From assembly GCF_963675165.1 (NCBI RefSeq), contig NC_087383.1, forward strand, positions 5,310,839 through 5,374,838: DNA of 64,000 nucleotides, given 5' to 3'. The notes beneath the pieces are model-generated. The model made no database searches, had not been told where the DNA came from, and saw only the letters and a list, made by a program, of their open reading frames with translations. Positions 22,561 to 32,015 of the stretch are shown here, in pieces. The position numbers were made by a program, and so were the translations under genes. This stretch comes from Halichondria panicea (Eukaryota > Porifera > Demospongiae > Suberitida > Halichondriidae). Every line of letters begins with the position of its first letter. Position 1 is the first letter of the stretch.

Positions 22561-22637
22561 GTGTAATTCGTTGTCCTTTAATGTCCTTTAACGTCCTTTA
22601 AAGGGAGGGTGAATCAACTTTTTTATTTTTGCATAAA

Positions 22638-23044
22638 TGTGACAGGCTCTGGGAAAAAGGCCATATTGGATATTGGAGCAGGCTACAATTGTTGAGATTT
22701 AAATACCAGATGATAGAGCAAAGAATTGCCTATGCACTGATATGCTTAGTTTTCACATACCTCTTTTCATGCCTGAGTTATGCGCGTTGGAAACTCAAAG
22801 TTCTGAAATAGCAGTATTGAGAAACGCCCACTTAAAGATTGCTAAATTGGGAAAAGTAAGGTAATGGCGGCTGCTTAGACAAAGCGCTTCGGTGGAACGC
22901 GTTGGATTCAGAGCATCAGATTTTACAGAGAGGTGACTATAGACAACTATAAGCTAAGAAAAATTATTATGAGATTATACACTGTAGTCTATAAATCTGA
23001 CCATTGCTCAATACCAATATCTGCTCCAACCAGAGCCTGTCACA
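22638..23044. mobile_element. MITE family A, copy 1 (TGTGACAGGCTCT ends)
   Basis: Begins TGTGACAGGCTCTGGGAAAA and ends CCAGAGCCTGTCACA. It is clearly related along its length to 50998-51417: both contain GATAGAGCA, GATATGCTTAGT, GAGTTATGCGCGTTGGAAACTC and AGAGCATCAGATTTTACAGAG. It has no coding capacity. It interrupts the left terminal repeat of the 9-kb element and so is younger than that element's insertion, or at least than its left end. Confidence 0.85.
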
Positions 23045-23124
23045 AATGTGTTCTATTTGAGACCCAGATGCATGCTATAAAGATTGAAATATTTTAATTC
23101 ATTATTGATGAAGGTTTAGTAAGG

Positions 23125-23187
23125 CATCCTGTCTAACATACTTCCTGTTGTGGTTGAATGTGGGCGTGACTACTGTCATAGAAGGAA
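23125..23187 (+). repeat. Left inner terminal inverted repeat of 9-kb element
   Basis: Inverted counterpart of 31632-31701. The right arm carries a few extra bases (GATGT) in the middle. Confidence 0.85.
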
Positions 23188-23696
23188 CAGTTATTGTAGC
23201 AACTATGAGTTCAAGCAGTGATGACAGTGGTATAGTTCTAGCCGGAGTGGTATCGCCACTGCACCGGAAGTACTGCATTTATCTGCAATTGACAGAAAAA
23301 AAATTTACGGGAAATTTACTAATTTTAGTATACTAAGTCATAATACTATGCTCTGTATCTTATGCACACACTGACCTATTAACATGAATTTCACCATCAT
23401 AGTTGCTGCTCATGCATGTAATAACCACAAGAAAATTGCACGCAGATAGATAATTTAGTTCTCTGTAAATTGCAAAAGTGTGGTCTGAAGCCAAGATTGA
23501 CTTGGGGCCATTTCAATTGGGGCCATTTCCAGCTTCCTCAAGGTAACCCACACTTATTACTACTAAAAGAAACAGTATGAAATTTCCAATTATTTAAGCA
23601 AATTTCCAGTCATGTATGTTGTATATTTTCCGAGATATCGATGTACAAAGATGACATAAAAATACTATGTACACACAATTGTAAACACACACAAGA

Positions 23697-25306
23697 ATGA
23701 GCAATGAAGCCATACATCACACATCAAATTTGTCACAGTATACAGAATCATCAGCAGTGTATATGGCCAGACTCAATGCGTTCTACGAAGGTTCTTGTGG
23801 ACCCTGTCGTCTCTGTATGGAAACAGTAAAGAAATATACACACGTCCAAAAGTTGAGTGAGAATGAATATTCATTACTGTTAAAAGTGGAAAGTGTGTCT
23901 ATAGACAAAAGTGCTTGTATTTGTTACAGTTGCTCAAAGCAAATAAAACGTAGCATAAGTAATAATCCCAACTTTCAACCGAGATGGAAACCAAAAATTG
24001 TCACAAGGAGACGTTGAAATGTAGTATACATATTTGCAACGAAAAACTTTGTAAAACCACAAAACTTGCCTCAGTTGAAGAGATTGAGGAAGTGCTGCAA
24101 CAAAAAGTAGCATGTTTTACAGTTGAGGATGACCAGGTGGATCACTACAACACATTGTACACTCACTACCTTGCATCCTCCTCATAGACTACCATGCGAG
24201 TCCTGTAAAATTAAACCACATAAAGGACAACACTTTAACAGACACTGTACGTCACCAGATGTAGTGAACGCCTACTTGAGGGAAGTCATCAATTACCCCT
24301 CTGACTTATCTAGAGAAAGCATACTTTGCCTTTCATGTTATATGCATTTCAGCATAATAACAAGAGGGAAGGGACACACAAATACATGTACTCAAGTGGT
24401 TTGAACCGAGAAGCAGAATGCGAGACTCGCAAAGAGATTGACACAGTGTTACTTCATTTGCAGTCTAAAGCAAATAAAATTATCCCAAACAAAGAAATGT
24501 CAGAGAAGGACATTTTTGAGCTTGTCATGCATAAATTGGGAATCTGACTGGGAGAATGCATAAAATGTGGTGAAGCTATGGTTTTACCAGAGCTGTACAG
24601 GGAATATATACGTACTGTGAAATCTACTTCATCCCAAACAGGTGCCAAATTTATCGAGGAAAATATCCCTAGCAGTCGCTGGTTTCTTTCAAACCTACAA
24701 GTATAATTATTATAAGGGTATGCTTGAGGTACATTGCCGTCATCGACGGTATGGGACAATTTTGTTTCACAAAAACTGTGACCTTGTTAGTGCATTATCA
24801 ATAGCACTAGGTAAGCGACAAAGTCCAAAAATAAAACAGGAACAAGATGAGATCAGGAACAAGATGAGATACATGACACTGCACGTGATTCAGAATCAAC
24901 ATCTATTGATAATTCAGTGGTTCCTGTTGCAAAGTACCTTAACGGTATCCTTCATGAAAGAGCAAAGACAGTATGTATGGAATATAATGGTATACCTGAA
25001 AAAGTCAGCAATTTCAAATTGTGTGAACTTATTGATAAAACAAACCCCATCTTACTACAATTTTTACGAGAATTAACACAGTCAGCCCGACAGAGCAAAC
25101 GTAAACTGTTTGAAGACCTCTCGCCTGAAGTGGATACTAAAACTATCCGTTTGGTATTTGCTCTAAGTGTACTACAATTCTGCACCAACAACATGCACTT
25201 GCAGTGCTCCACTACATGTTGCTCTCACAGAATCTATACTATGTCATGGTGGAACTCAAGAGTTAATTCGTATTCTAAACAGATTAGGTGCAGCAGCTTC
25301 CCTTGA
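23697..25306 (+). pseudogene. Cys-rich N-terminal region of the 9-kb element's protein
   Basis: A run of frames in different phases reads as one broken protein. It contains CGPCRLCMETVKKYT with ACICYSCSKQIK, then CSIHICNEKLCK, then LPCESCKIKPHKGQHFN with LCLSCYMHF, then GECIKCGEAM, then LEVHCRHRRYGTILFHKNC, then KYLNGILHERAKT. The Cys pairs suggest several zinc-binding modules. At least four shifts or stops separate them. One shift (24642 frame to 24917 frame) coincides exactly with a 17-bp tandem duplication at 24837-24870; skipping one copy puts the two frames in phase. No named domain is recognised with certainty. Its position suggests a DNA- or target-binding part of the element's protein. 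Confidence 0.6.
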
Positions 25307-26053
25307 CACAGTCAATCGCTTAGCCACAAACGTCGTTACAAAACGGATAGCAGAAGGTGTATCAGCAGACCTCAAGCCTGGAATGTATGCTACAGCAACA
25401 GTAGACAATATCGACATTATACAACCATTTGCATTTGTGTCCTGTTTAGATGCATCCCGAAGTTGGCATGGGACATCTGTTCAATGTATTCAACCCCTAC
25501 CAGAAACAGAGTATCTATCACAAGACCTTGTGCCCTCATCTCATGCTTCACAATTAACCACCCGAACTCACATTCAAACAACATCCCCAGTAAACACTCC
25601 AATACCACATGAGAAACATAAGCGAAGACGTCGTACACTGACAGAGTTTTCACCACATACCTCAATAACAGTTGCTCCCAAAAAGAATTCAACAGTACTC
25701 CAAGACAAGGAGGTTTTTCAGTCAATACACACAGCTGAATATGTGCGTTTGCAAACAGATTCTGAACTGTCAATAGCACAATTTAGACCAACAGCAGTTG
25801 AAGAAGCTTCACTTAAAGTTTTGCAGGAGGATTTGTTTAAATGCATTACACTACGGAGCTTTTCCCCTCCCCAAATATTTCCTAGCTTAGTGTCACTACT
25901 AAACTGTGTCAAAAGACAAACCTATGACAAAGAAGTTTCCAACATTGAGGTAGTGAGTGAAAAGGCTGACAGTAAACCCACACTGGTAGGTGTCATTGCA
26001 CGTTTACACAAGCTATTCCTAATTGACCACGGACAGAAGCATGTGTTCCTAGT
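25167..26053 (+). pseudogene. Central region: HGGTQELIR / VDNIDI / RSWHGTS
   Basis: One long frame covers HGGTQELIRILNRLGAAASL, VTKRIAEG, then ATVDNIDI (Asp at residues 80 and 83 of the frame) and RSWHGTSVQ. A Ser/Thr/Arg-rich linker follows, then VGVIARLHKLFLIDHGQKHV. The frame is then cut by an 840-bp insertion. The same phrases occur, as I remember them, in large uncharacterised cnidarian and sponge proteins. The VDNID Asp could be the first acid of an RNase-H-fold (DDE) core completed by GDAKTY after the insertion and ALDECHEM further on. That is inference. Confidence 0.6.
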
Positions 26054-26054
26054 T

Positions 26055-26893
26055 ATGCCTCGAGGCGTAGCCGCACGAGGGATACGGTAAAGCTGACTGT
26101 GTGTGTGTGTGTGTGTCTGTGTGTCTGTGTGTCTGTTCCAGCTGTAACTGCTCAACGGTTGCAATGCGACGAAAACTAACAGCTTCTATAGGCTTCTAGC
26201 CACGTTCTCTTGGATTTTGATTCGTGGATTTGCAAACTAAAGCTTCTTTCTCGAGTTATGGCTAGTTTGACTCACATTGAAGGCTGTTGCAGTCTCTTCA
26301 GAATCTTTCATAGCATCATCTGTCCGCACAAACTTTCTATTCAACATATGAGTTAGCCTTGCACTAAAGCGCTAGCTTTTTGTTAGCTACAATACTCAGA
26401 AAATATCTGTTAAAACAGCTACTAGCTAGCAGTAGCCATTTGTGAAATTGATCTCTTTGGACACACCCTTTAATTATTCCTGTGTGTGTAATGCGCATGC
26501 GCGCTCATTCCCCACGTGTGAGAAAATAATAATATCCAAGATCCAGATCCTCCTGGCAGAATCATCTTTGTCTTGAAGGCCTGGTAAGCCACAAAACACT
26601 ACCATATAACAATATAGATAACAATATGCATGTACACAGGTCTTTTCTTCTTAGATATTATATACACTGAACTACAGATCTTGGAAGAATCAATTTTCTT
26701 CTTTCTTGAGGTCCTAGTAAGCCACATAATACAACAATAGATGCATGTAAATAAGTCTTTTCTTCTCAGTGACTTTATATAGATAAGCTAACTTTAATAT
26801 TAAATTCATTATAGAAACTAATATAACACTCTAATACTTTTCAGCGAAAGCAAAAACATGGCGAGAGGCATTAGCACAGCGCCAGCTTGAACA
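26055..26893. mobile_element. Insertion inside the coding frame, 6-bp target repeat CTAGTT
   Basis: CTAGTT occurs at 26049-26054 and again at 26894-26899. Directly joining the flanks keeps the phrase HVFLV followed by GDAKTYVILK in frame, so 26055-26893 is an insertion. Its ends hold ATGCCTCGAGGCG and CGAGAGGCAT in inverted relation. It contains a (GT)n tract at about 26098-26136 and two imperfect direct copies of about 105 bp (26558-26668 and 26685-26790). No protein is seen in it. Confidence 0.7.
26098..26136. repeat. GT-rich microsatellite
   Basis: GTGTGTGTGTGTGTGTGTCTGTGT-type tract inside the insertion at 26055-26893. Confidence 0.9.
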
Positions 26894-26996
26894 CTAGTTG
26901 GAGATGCAAAAACATACGTTATTTTAAAGGAAATAATTATGCTATGAATATGCAGGCCAGCAGTGGCTAACGCCTTATCCCGGTGATTGGCACATT

Positions 26997-29429
26997 TTGT
27001 TAAACTATCAAAAAGCTCTCATGAAACCCTATGCTGATGCTGGCCTGGCTAGTTTAGGCAAAGTTTCTGGACACAAGGGGGAAACATTGACTTCTCTAAT
27101 CCATGCAACAAATTTCAGAAGAACACATGAGTTTCTACTACAAGCGTATGAAGCTATATACAGGTACTTTTTGTCACTGTATACAACTGAGCTTTGCGAA
27201 AATGACATGAGTGATACAGACTATACACATGAGATTACGACAATGATTACTCAATTAGCTACTCAATTCTCACACACGTCAGGTATTGCAGACCTAGAAG
27301 TGTTTAGGGACACGGCTACAAAACTTCTAAATAGCACCGCAATGAAATTGCTGAAGTATAAAACATTCATGGAAAGACTATCCACAAAGCATGACACTGT
27401 TAAATTCTGGTATCAGTTCATCACCGTCGATTGTTTTGCTTATTTGGCCCTTTTTATAGCTCAAAAATATAGGAATTGGGAGCTAAGAGTTGGAAGCATA
27501 AAACTTTTATCAGCAGTTTTCACTGCATTCGATCACCCAACATATCAAGAAGTAATCCCACAGCATTTACAGGACTTATTGAGACTGCCAGATTCTGTAT
27601 TACAGTATCTGAGATCGGGTGCTTTTAGTGCCCGTTTAAGTCCATCAGAATGGCATAGCGTTGCTTTAGACGAATGCCATGAGATGAAAATCAATAAAGA
27701 CGCAAAACTGGCAGTTATACGACCAACTCCACAAAAAATGGAATTTCTGTCTAACTATCTCTCATATAGGGCAGTTTGTGTTAGAAATTTGCAAAAAGAG
27801 TTATTCCCAGAGCAGGAGAAACCAACCGATGCTCATGGTCACATAACAACAAGTAGAGACAAGAAAGGTGAAACAAATGTTGATCACATGATTGACACCA
27901 TTACTAAGAATGGTATGGCCATCCACGAAGATTTATGGAATTTTTTGGAATGTAAGCAAGCCAGTCTGGAACAATCTTATGACCTTCTAAACTTCAGGAA
28001 TATTGGTCAGGAAGCATACGAATCATTTGTATCTACTAAGTACCTTCACATGCCAAGTACATCAGTTATAAAACGCAAGAAACGACTGAGTACTTTTACT
28101 ATAACAGCAACACAAAAAAAGAAAGTAAAGCTGATTGACCAAGAACGTAAAATTAGTCAACGTTATCTGAAAAGGCAACTTGCTTGGATAGCGGAACAAG
28201 GGATTGACAATATTGACATTGATAGTTTATTTGGCCCCATTTCACAAGTCCCAAGAGCACTTGTAGACGGTAAAGGTTTCCCACAAAAAGCATATAAGGC
28301 TAGTACAACCGGATTTTATGAGAAAAGGTATGCCAAATTACCAGTTATTCTAAACAGCTTCCCTCCCCTGTGGGTACCACATTCAGTGATCCTAGAGGGA
28401 ATGTTCATGATTCAGACAACACCACTACCTACAGTGAGCAACATGAATGATTACGTAATACTTTTAATCAATCAGTTTGTAAAACCTCACATTAAGGCAG
28501 GTGTACAGGAGGTCCACGTACAGGAGGTCCACGTAGTGTTTGACACACCCGGTTCAATGAAAGAGACACCAAAAGAACTAGAACAAAAGCGAAGAGACGA
28601 GAGTGTACAAACTACAAAAGTTGATCATATATGTGGCCATATTGACAATAATACAACTGTGCCTACAAACTGGAGATCATTTCTCACATGCAGAAGATGT
28701 AAAAAAGACCTAACAGAATATTTAGCAACAGAAATTTTAAATGTTGTGCCTAGTATTCTCTCAGCAGAGCAAGCAGTATTTTGTAACATTGGCGTTGATG
28801 CATACACTACATCAAACTCGAAAGAAATACTTCCTTGCCCTTCATTGTGGACAGACGCAGATGAGGGGGATTTAAGAGTATGGTTACACTGTGTACATTC
28901 AGCCGGCACAAACAAATTGGTATTTTCAAGAGATACAGACGTTTACCACATAGGTCTGACAGTGCTTCACCTAATCCCAACTAACCACATAATTGTACAG
29001 CTCAGTAAAAGTTACAAAAACGGTGGAAAATTTATTAATCTTAAGGCATTCGCTGAGGCCCTTTCGAAAGACCCTGACCTAAGTGGCATTACTGATTTAC
29101 ACAGACCTCAAGTTATCCAATCTATTTATGTTAGTACTGGCTGTGACTACATCTCATTTTTTTCTGGCGTGGGAAAAATTACTTTTCTGACAACTTTTTT
29201 CCAGTATGCATCATTTATAACAGGCGGACAACCCATTGGAAGCATGGGAATTCTTGAGACCTCCTCAGCACTATTGTCATTCTTACGTCTAGTGGGTTGT
29301 GCATATTTTAAGAAACACACATCGGCATTCGAACACCCTACCTACACCAATTGCTCTGTACCAATCATCTGTACCAATCAATTGGTATTGTTAACCCACT
29401 TAAACACCATGAAGAATGGTTACAAGTAA
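26997..29429 (+). CDS. 810-codon frame: FEN1/XPG-like (PIN-fold) nuclease protein of the 9-kb element
   Basis: The frame is open upstream of the first Met as well (WLTPYPGDWHILLNYQK), so the Met is not the real start. This is the second part of the protein cut at 26054. Residues 223-235 read ALDECHEMKINKD, a possible DDE glutamate region. From about residue 510 a FEN1/XPG-like layout appears. It has VVFDTPG (Asp516) followed by a basic KxxPKELEQKRRDE stretch, DADEGDL (Glu623, Asp625), SRDTDVY (Asp646, Asp648), and TGCDYISFFSGVGK (Asp717) resembling the FEN1 helix-turn-helix start. These acids match the metal-binding set of flap nucleases. A doubled VQEVH at residues 504-512 comes from a 15-bp tandem duplication. 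The last 20 residues are out of phase because of a 13-bp duplication at 29355-29380. Confidence 0.65.
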   Translation: MLNYQKALMKPYADAGLASLGKVSGHKGETLTSLIHATNFRRTHEFLLQAYEAIYRYFLSLYTTELCENDMSDTDYTHEITTMITQLATQFSHTSGIADLEVFRDTATKLLNSTAMKLLKYKTFMERLSTKHDTVKFWYQFITVDCFAYLALFIAQKYRNWELRVGSIKLLSAVFTAFDHPTYQEVIPQHLQDLLRLPDSVLQYLRSGAFSARLSPSEWHSVALDECHEMKINKDAKLAVIRPTPQKMEFLSNYLSYRAVCVRNLQKELFPEQEKPTDAHGHITTSRDKKGETNVDHMIDTITKNGMAIHEDLWNFLECKQASLEQSYDLLNFRNIGQEAYESFVSTKYLHMPSTSVIKRKKRLSTFTITATQKKKVKLIDQERKISQRYLKRQLAWIAEQGIDNIDIDSLFGPISQVPRALVDGKGFPQKAYKASTTGFYEKRYAKLPVILNSFPPLWVPHSVILEGMFMIQTTPLPTVSNMNDYVILLINQFVKPHIKAGVQEVHVQEVHVVFDTPGSMKETPKELEQKRRDESVQTTKVDHICGHIDNNTTVPTNWRSFLTCRRCKKDLTEYLATEILNVVPSILSAEQAVFCNIGVDAYTTSNSKEILPCPSLWTDADEGDLRVWLHCVHSAGTNKLVFSRDTDVYHIGLTVLHLIPTNHIIVQLSKSYKNGGKFINLKAFAEALSKDPDLSGITDLHRPQVIQSIYVSTGCDYISFFSGVGKITFLTTFFQYASFITGGQPIGSMGILETSSALLSFLRLVGCAYFKKHTSAFEHPTYTNCSVPIICTNQLVLLTHLNTMKNGYK

Positions 29430-29439
29430 TCAGCTAAGG

Positions 29440-30006
29440 GCAGATACAGAAAGCCATAATTTACCATCTACCGAAGCTCTGGCGCTACACTGGAAGAGAT
29501 GCTTATGGGTACTTCAAATGTGGAACAGTGCAACACAAAATGACATGGACCTTCCAGGTACACACATTATACCCTGATACTTATGCATGTGCTCACCTTG
29601 TTAATTCCTATTTCAGCTCTCTCTCACTACACATGGATGGAAGCGATAAAATGGAGAACTGGGGATTCAATGGGATTCTCCAGAAAACCTGACAAAGTCA
29701 AAGGAAAGAGTGGAATATGTATTATCAGGGTGCAAGTGCAAGACTGGTTGCACAAACAAATGATGCAAATGTTTCAAACAGGAAAGAAGGTGTGGGCCTG
29801 GCTGTAAGTGTGTAAACTGTATGAATACACAGAGTAATCACCTATTTGAAGAGGATGATGTACACGATCTTGTATTATCAGAGCAGTGCCATTATAATTC
29901 TGAAGATGACTATGTTGAGACAGACTGTGAGGAAGATGAAGAAACAAACGAAATCATAAACGAAGTGTTTGGACCAGACAATGATACTGAAGATGTGTTT
30001 GTATAG
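29440..30006 (+). pseudogene. C-terminal exons with tesmin-type CXC domain and acidic tail
   Basis: After the 810-codon frame, coding continues in other phases. ALALHWKRCLWVLQMWNSA runs to a GT at 29558. A 59-bp candidate intron follows (29558-29616, ends TTTCAG). Then come ALSHYTWMEAIKW, TKSKERVEYVLSG and a CXC unit CKCKTGC...CKCF...CGPGCKCVNC at 29731-29820. An in-frame TGA at 29761-29763 sits where an Arg codon (CGA) is expected, suggesting a C-to-T change. The tail after 29821 is very acidic (EEDDVHD, CEEDEETNE) and ends at 30004-30006. CXC domains bind DNA in tesmin, TSO1 and MSL2. Confidence 0.65.
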
Positions 30007-31631
30007 GTTTAATGTATGTCAGCTATGTTCCCTGGGATTATGCTTCAAAACTTATACAGTCTGTACTTAAGATACTAGACAACACATAAAACAAATTTCA
30101 GCGATGTATCAACTTTCAAAGTGCTACCAGGGCCAACCAAAGTTGATAAATGAATCTTCAAATGTTGGCCTAATACTATAGCACATTATTACTCGCAGGA
30201 TAGTTGGTTTCTTGTTTTGACTTCAGTTATACATTATATAATACTCCTTTATTAGCTTACCATTACTTCTCAGTCTCATCTGTGGCCCAAACTCCTGTAG
30301 AACATCAGCAAACATGGGCAGCGAAAGCGTTCTTTGGCATTGCAAATTTATGAACTCCGCCCATTGTAATTAATTTTACAGGAAGTTGTGCAGTGGCGAT
30401 ACCACTGTTCAGTGTCTTCTGTTGAAATGATGTGTCAGAAGTTTCAGAACATGGAAGTAATCAAGAAACAATTGAGCCCTACAGATTTGAGAGTGGCACA
30501 CCATGTACCATTAGACACAGAACCAGGAGGAGAAGAAGGAGAAGAAGATGATGACTCTGAAGGTGCATGTGCTTCATACAAAAATGCACATAAACAAGCA
30601 TGTAATCTATTCAGGTGAGAATGTGTATGTTGCTGTGAAGTGGAAAGTCGTCGAGAAGAAGGAAGAAATCACACTGATATAAGTTGACATGAATGATTCA
30701 CACCGGTGTGCCTCGATGTGTGGGTACTTCAAATAGCATACTCTAACTACAGATATCATTATGGTGATCCAGCACATTCATGAGTATAAAGTGTTACTGA
30801 ATTATAAGCCATGTATTTTATTCGTAGGCGTTACCGGTTCATTGCTTATCGGCAACTTGTTGGTTGGTGTTGGGGATGGCTAGCTGCGCTGTAAACCAAA
30901 TCAGGGAAACTTCAGGACACTTCTGCTAACTATGCTGGATTTAAATATCCACAAGTGTCATTTTACAATATAAATATAAACTGTCATACGAACATGAAAA
31001 TGTTAGTGGTCAGGGGTGATGAATCTGCTTTGGTGCGGAATGGCATGATTTTTCTGGTTTTACAAAATCGCTACTTATAATAGGCTGGTAGGTATCAGAT
31101 GATTTGCTTTTACCCTTAGCGCTTGTTTTTGTTTGGCTAACTTGAACACAGGCTTGCACTGATACATGGTTGTATTTAGGACTAGGTTCATCATCTGGTT
31201 CGACTTCAGCAGAAGCCAGTTGGAGAGTGTGAGGGTCCAGCAATAATTTGATTGACAATCTGTACTGGTTAAGCTTACAAAATGCAAGAATTGACAGCAC
31301 CTTTACCTCATGCCGTTGCCTTTTCTCTACAACTCCTCTTCTTCTTCCGATACCACCCCCTTCTGCTCTTCTCTTATGACCAATTTCATGGTTTCAGCGC
31401 CTTCTTTTCTTCAGGCCAAGTAAGAGCTGAGTTAATTTCAAAGCTGTCATCAGTAAAATGTTCACGAGTGCATGATCAGTGGCCTTCCATACACTGAGCT
31501 CTTGTTCGTTGAACTTCACTTTTTTTTTATCCAGCATCCTTGGGAAAGCTCACTAGGAGTGTTTGAGCACCCAGCAGCTACAATCTGTTGACCATAGTGC
31601 TACAGTTGAGTGGCATTAAGTTTTGCATGTA
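30007..31631. other. 3' part of the 9-kb element; weak ORFs only
   Basis: A plus frame at 30388-30618 (contains EPGGEEGEEDDDSEG) begins within the inner inverted repeat. A minus frame at 31010-31300 (LQLASAEVEPDDEPSP) is open for 96 codons. Neither has a recognisable domain. They could be exons of a second gene carried by the element. Confidence 0.35.
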
Positions 31632-31701
31632 TTCCTTCTATGACATCATGTAGTAGCCGCGCCCACATTCAACCACAACAGGAAGTATGTTAGACAGGAT
31701 G
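31632..31701 (-). repeat. Right inner terminal inverted repeat of 9-kb element
   Basis: Inverted counterpart of 23125-23187. The outermost AGGGAGGGTGA match is at 31721-31731 next to TTAA 31732-31735. Confidence 0.85.
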
Positions 31702-32015
31702 CTAAATCTGCCTCACTAAGTCACCCTCCCTTTAAGGCACTTACCATAACGCACATACCATAACCTGCCAGTTGGTGGAGTTGATGGAGACATTGCGCTC
31801 CAATCTTCATCTATTCAAAATAATCACTTACCATAACTTGTCTTGGGTTGTTTGATGGGGACACAGGACTCTCACCTAAATAATTTCAGAACTGCGTCCA
31901 ACCACTTACCATAACCTGTCAGTGGAGACATTGGGCCGAGACTGGACTGACTGATAGTAAAGGACGCTGGTAGCAACCTGCATAATTTTAAGTGTATAAT
32001 AGGTACTTGCTTGTG

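Follow-up and report, generated by a model that had tools for sequence, protein, structure and literature searches.

Proteins of Academ transposons bear Cys fingers, and the nuclease of the AcademX lineage is of the XPG type. The Drosophila P element and hAT transposons (Hermes) leave 8-bp duplications and are not known to have a FEN1 domain, and THAP fingers can occur in proteins of the Kolobok superfamily. The accessible text of PMC10045372 gives duplications of 9 or 10 bp for AcademH and of 3 or 4 bp for AcademX, which are seemingly tied to the encoded helicase and nuclease, that of PMC10294476 gives a mean length of 5565 bp for Academ in bivalves, and that of PMC9587614 lists TTAA duplications, RR...YY termini and a C/DxxH motif as traits of Kolobok. 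We analyzed a stretch of 64,000 nt from Halichondria panicea (GCF_963675165.1, NC_087383.1, forward strand, 5,310,839-5,374,838; this whole stretch is called the window, and all positions refer to it) and searched the genome that holds it (131 Mb, 39 contigs) for copies. An earlier description of the locus from its letters alone (the sequence-only reading) had taken 22602-31731 as one 9130-bp TTAA element coding for a FEN1-like nuclease. We found that what was read as one 9.1-kb "TTAA element" combines two transposons of known kinds, which other copies in the same genome separate, and the locus is very probably a nest in which an Academ transposon of the AcademX lineage lies inside an earlier-inserted DNA transposon of the Kolobok type (Table 1).

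The claimed TTAA flanks and AGGGAGGGTGA inverted ends (20 nt, 90% identity in the repeat finder) were present, as were the inner inverted repeats put at about 65 bp (23124-23174/31652-31702, 51 nt, 96%, plus a 14-nt arm pair), and these TTAA/AGGGAGGGTGA ends do flank the gene in inverted orientation, as expected of a single 9.1-kb TTAA transposon encoding a FEN1-DDE protein. A genome search for the outer element with the 312 bases that precede the right TTAA listed 12 matching stretches, two of which were the window's own two ends. Three copies were fetched (L052, 1941 bp; L053, 1936 bp; L051, 3976 bp), each with TTAA at both ends and inverted repeats of 215-218 bp that were 97.2-98.6% identical, and in none of the three did the FEN1 gene or any of the coding region align. 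The homology of the window to these copies breaks off at 23239-23241 and picks up again at 30406-30415. Conversely, the three close copies of the coding element, L044 (C6), L046 (C11) and L047 (C1), which are internally deleted and 92-95% identical to the window over the retained parts, gave no match to the repeat or flanks of the TTAA element. All three align from 23246, L044 and L047 reach 30407 and L046 stops early at 29961; their flanks differ, and they share the terminus CAGTGGTATCGCC, the first base of which is G in the window. This common start lies at a separate, perfect 19-nt inverted repeat (23246-23264/30388-30406, repeat finder; 20 nt counting the terminal base of the other copies). 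Searches with the inner ends listed 5 and 8 places, of which only the window's own locus was in common with the places of the TTAA ends. The separate ends and separate copies, like the domain content and duplication sizes given below, were observed directly, and they make a single TTAA transposon a very improbable reading. The AGGGAGGGTGA ends are not those of the coding element; they belong to a different element, apparently of the Kolobok type.

TTAA duplications had also been ascribed to the coding element. Where duplications could be read, this element and its recent relatives gave 4-bp ones that are not TTAA: GAGC stands on both sides of L044, one of the two testable copies of the inner family. 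A protein search of the same genome, with 54 of 105 candidates scored, gave 57 matches, and one relative, 38% identical, was present at C3, C9 and C14 with open frames of 1617, 1732 and 1732 codons, the two others matching the one at C9 (L040) at 99.3 and 99.7% identity over 6.2 kb; such near-identity indicates recent movement. Two further, shorter copies of this relative were found by end searches at C10 and C7. All five copies start with CAGTCTAATGG, end with CCAACTG and have exact 4-bp duplications (GAAC, TAAT, TGAA, TTCT and TTCT), so that a TTAA duplication as in Kolobok was found neither at L044 nor at any of the five sites of the relative. The coding region sits among repeats of other families, which would suit a host gene, not a transposase, that two separate miniature inverted-repeat transposable elements (MITEs) captured or interrupted. 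We regard this explanation as hardly credible, since the family occurs in multiple copies that have terminal inverted repeats and flanking duplications, three chromosome sites carry relatives that are nearly identical over 6.2 kb, and internally deleted derivatives retain the ends. Another relative of the inner element (L042 and L048, at ~4.69 and ~4.61 Mb of C8) was seen in a duplicated locus, ~99% identical; its flanks are the same in both places, and it was therefore copied by segmental duplication, not by transposition.

The motifs named in the sequence-only reading (VDNIDI, RSWHGTS, GDAKTY, PGDWH, ALDECHEM, the FEN1 acids and the CXC cysteines) were all found on the plus strand, within the coding region of one broken protein whose longest open frame has 830 codons (26937-29429). 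The proposal of a mobile element whose single protein joins a FEN1-type nuclease to Cys fingers and a DDE core stood, whereas its description as a TTAA element with AGGGAGGGTGA ends did not. A search of about 5.8 billion proteins with the 830-aa frame (7995 candidates scored) returned 80 relatives, few of them with a named source, including a sea cucumber, a mussel and a record labelled uncultured Thioglobus. PF20231 (DUF6589) was present in seven of the eight relatives scanned, in six above the cut-off; the eighth (P0054) begins at the last DDE motif and has CXC above the cut-off. At E <= 0.01, DUF6589 was found in 16 and CXC in 4 of the 29 relatives, many of them partial, in alignment A1. 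In alignment A2 (25 rows) GDAKTY had an invariant D and DECHE an invariant D, E, H and E, and of the 20 rows that have a residue at the first D of the DDE core, 19 have D. Six of the nuclease acids were kept in 28 or 29 of the 29 rows of A1, the first position was E in 21 and D in 8, and the window copy retains all seven. The structure model of relative P0003 has a FEN1/EXO1/XPG fold, suggesting that the protein of the inner element has a nuclease of this fold with the full acid set and predicted activity. At the N-terminus, the Cys-rich region matched that of P0042 weakly (24% identity, E 1.7e-13), and the Pfam scan found no zinc finger in this region of the window. The window's match to CXC/TCR (PF03638) reached 19.5 bits, below the cut-off of 23.5. 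In the intact 1732-codon frame of L040, DUF6589 was above the cut-off at 51.2 bits and no Pfam match to CXC was obtained at E <= 0.1, although CXC-like cysteines are visible in the sequence.

DUF6589 gave 92 matches in the genome of the window and none in 14 control genomes. At two loci with stronger matches, L060 and L061 (136.2 and 109.1 bits), the DUF6589 gene is followed immediately by a helicase gene on the other strand (PF00271, Helicase_C, E 1.7e-12 in L060; PF00270, DEAD, E 5e-14 in L061), and we read this helicase as RecQ-like. Exact 9-bp duplications were present at the ends of three of the six copies of the L061 family. These elements resemble AcademH in that they combine the same DUF6589 core as the inner element with a helicase gene, and they differ from the inner element in having a helicase, not a nuclease, and 9-bp instead of 4-bp duplications. 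The inner element in turn shares with AcademX a DDE core, a nuclease and duplications within 3-4 bp, and its intact relatives, at 6.2 kb, are near the bivalve Academ mean; it differs in its C-terminal CXC-like unit, on the occurrence of which in AcademX we found no statement in the literature searched. This unit may belong regularly to AcademX proteins and have gone undescribed. Since both lineages are recognisable in one genome by enzyme and duplication length, we presumed that the inner element is of the AcademX type, and it is most likely a degraded AcademX-type Academ transposon, interrupted by repeats and of a known kind. The Academ features found are the DUF6589 core common to nuclease- and helicase-bearing elements, the nuclease and the 4-bp duplications. 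The sequence-only reading, which knew of no described superfamily with such a combination, had itself stated that copies whose ends differ, or a match to a known superfamily, would count against a single new element, and both were obtained, the former from other copies in the same genome and the latter with AcademX, which fits the combination in its nuclease and its 3-4 bp duplications according to the accessible part of PMC10045372.

Several observations weigh against this placement. The DUF6589 match of the window itself has 16.6 bits, below the cut-off of 27, and the modelled structures belong to relatives and not to the broken protein of the window. The DDE model of the relatives is nearest to the P-element and Hermes transposases with scores that are only moderate, and Foldseek alone gave no significant match for it. 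L047 has no target duplication, so that the 4-bp duplication of the inner family stands in only one of two testable copies, and in the window the left junction of the inner element looks eroded relative to L051, so that no duplication is readable there. Two of the six L061-family copies have unmatched flanks and in one the left end was not found. Finally, the assignment to Academ was made by published description, not by Repbase reference sequences. This last point, together with the lack of any mention of DUF6589 in the literature searched, would suit a separate, undescribed superfamily whose DUF6589 link to Academ is distant or nil. We consider such a superfamily improbable, because the DUF6589 elements of the same genome match AcademH when they carry a helicase and 9-bp duplications and AcademX when they carry a nuclease and 4-bp duplications.

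With the inner element placed in AcademX, DUF6589 most likely represents the transposase core of Academ, arranged like those of the P element and hAT. The modelled core resembles those of the P element and Hermes in the arrangement of the DDE acids and in a long helical insertion before the last acid; the PDB gave no useful sequence match. A Pfam family of unknown function thus gains a most likely identity, and a claimed new transposon superfamily is removed, illustrating that nesting can produce a false composite. The presence of both Academ lineages, with their differing duplication lengths, in one genome opens to test the proposed dependence of duplication length on the partner enzyme. Three results keep their interest: that DUF6589 is assigned to Academ, that an intact frame has the FEN1/CXC architecture, and that the two lineages occur together in one genome.

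Two side observations concern the L061 family. The two copies with unmatched flanks lie at ~1.593 and ~1.626 Mb of C10 in opposite orientation (L061, L065, L071, L072), and the right flank of one is the left flank of the other over 9 bp (ATAGAACCA), as after an inversion between copies. The terminus TAGCCTCGAGACCAG of the L061 ends had 3683 forward and 3637 reverse matches in the genome when up to 2 mismatches were allowed, whereas the reversed control had 41 and 46, and a very abundant family of short elements may share the ends of this helicase-type Academ element.

The outer element was filed as Kolobok-type from its TTAA duplication, its RR...YY termini (AG...CT in L051-L053 and in the window), a DxxH-bearing fragment and a THAP finger, which are its points of likeness to the Kolobok superfamily. 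The minus strand of L051 has coding sequence for a THAP protein (PF05485, E 5e-20) and for a Mutator-like fragment of 281 aa with DIWH in it (PF20700, E 1.5e-6, just above the cut-off; MULE, E 3e-4, below its cut-off). No piggyBac family of Pfam was matched by the L051 fragments, which hold partial coding sequence only and matched Mutator, MULE and THAP. The difference from Kolobok is that the longest outer copy is only partially coding and the window's outer copy is non-coding. A 188-aa frame on the plus strand of L051 (338-904), acidic and then Cys-rich, had no significant Pfam match and is perhaps a second protein of the outer element.

In the history that we propose, a Kolobok-type transposon with a TTAA target and long inverted repeats would have inserted first, an AcademX-lineage Academ transposon would have inserted into it later, and both would then have been broken by frameshifts, by stops and by the arrival of a MITE and an 839-bp interspersed repeat. 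Judging from the fold and the conserved acids, the Cys and CXC regions of the Academ protein may bind DNA, the P-element/hAT-like DDE core may cut and join, and the FEN1-type domain may trim or cut a flap, a hairpin or the second strand at the junction of transposon or target, leaving 4-bp duplications. With DDE core, flap nuclease and CXC unit in one polypeptide, one protein would do the whole reaction, including the junction processing that is usually the host's. The author of PMC10045372 suggests in the accessible text that the duplication length is set by the nuclease or helicase; the contrast observed here fits this and does not prove it. We tentatively extend the suggestion, at less than even confidence, to the idea that Academ elements swap a FEN1-type nuclease for a helicase as strand-processing partner, the choice setting the stagger at 4 or 9 bp, and that the nuclease lineage unites DDE core, flap nuclease and CXC unit in one polypeptide.

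Table 1. Features of the nested locus (positions in the window)
Feature	Position	Strand	Basis
TTAA, left end of outer element	22598..22601	.	Sequence; TTAA at both ends of L051-L053
Outer element, putatively Kolobok-type, left part (inverted repeat, MITE inside)	22602..23244	.	Aligns to L051-L053 up to 23239-23241
405-bp MITE in outer left repeat, AAAT-flanked	22639..23043	.	Inverted ends; uninterrupted site in L051-L053
Inner element, most likely AcademX-type Academ, degraded	23245..30407	+	Deleted copies L044, L046 and L047 start there; right end 30407 also in L044 and L047
Left terminal inverted repeat of inner element (opens with G in place of C)	23245..23264	+	Repeat pair; terminal C in L044, L046 and L047
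Broken coding region of a single protein (spread over several frames, with stops and an insert)	23775..29994	+	tblastn with P0042, P0002, P0003, others and the L040 open frame
N-terminal Cys-rich region, paired Cys motifs, zinc-finger-like	23793..24580	+	Motifs; weak P0042 match
DUF6589/DDE core	25401..27686	+	A2 conservation; PF20231 in relatives; model and VIA-align
VDNIDI, first D of DDE core	25401-25418	+	
RSWHGTS motif	25458-25478	+	
839-bp high-copy interspersed repeat in coding region, CTAGTT-flanked	26055..26893	.	Genome copies; flanks
GDAKTY, second D of DDE core	26900-26917	+	
PGDWH motif	26979-26993	+	
ALDECHEM, last acid of DDE core	27663-27686	+	
Acids of predicted FEN1/EXO1/XPG-fold nuclease (EGMF, VVFD, DEGD, RDTD, GCD)	28389..29162	+	A1 conservation; model; VIA-align; present in window frame
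CXC (tesmin/TSO1-like) cysteine unit, second half	29764..29820	+	PF03638 below cut-off; P0054 above
Right terminal inverted repeat of inner element	30388..30407	-	Repeat pair; identical end in L044 and L047
Outer element, putatively Kolobok-type, right part	30408..31731	.	Aligns to L051-L053
TTAA, right end of outer element	31732..31735	.	Sequence; same in L051-L053

Both later insertions belong to repeated families. The 405-bp MITE has many genome copies (296 candidates, 40 scored), and of the 40 best rows for the 839-bp repeat, which separates the two largest coding frames, 33 were full-length with 92-100% identity, the window's own among them (3056 candidates, 40 scored). The coding region in the window is split over several frames, and its last part has four stops when compared with the intact relative. 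Within the nuclease region, 28503-28532 is an exact 15-bp tandem duplication (GTACAGGAGGTCCAC twice), by which five residues are repeated.
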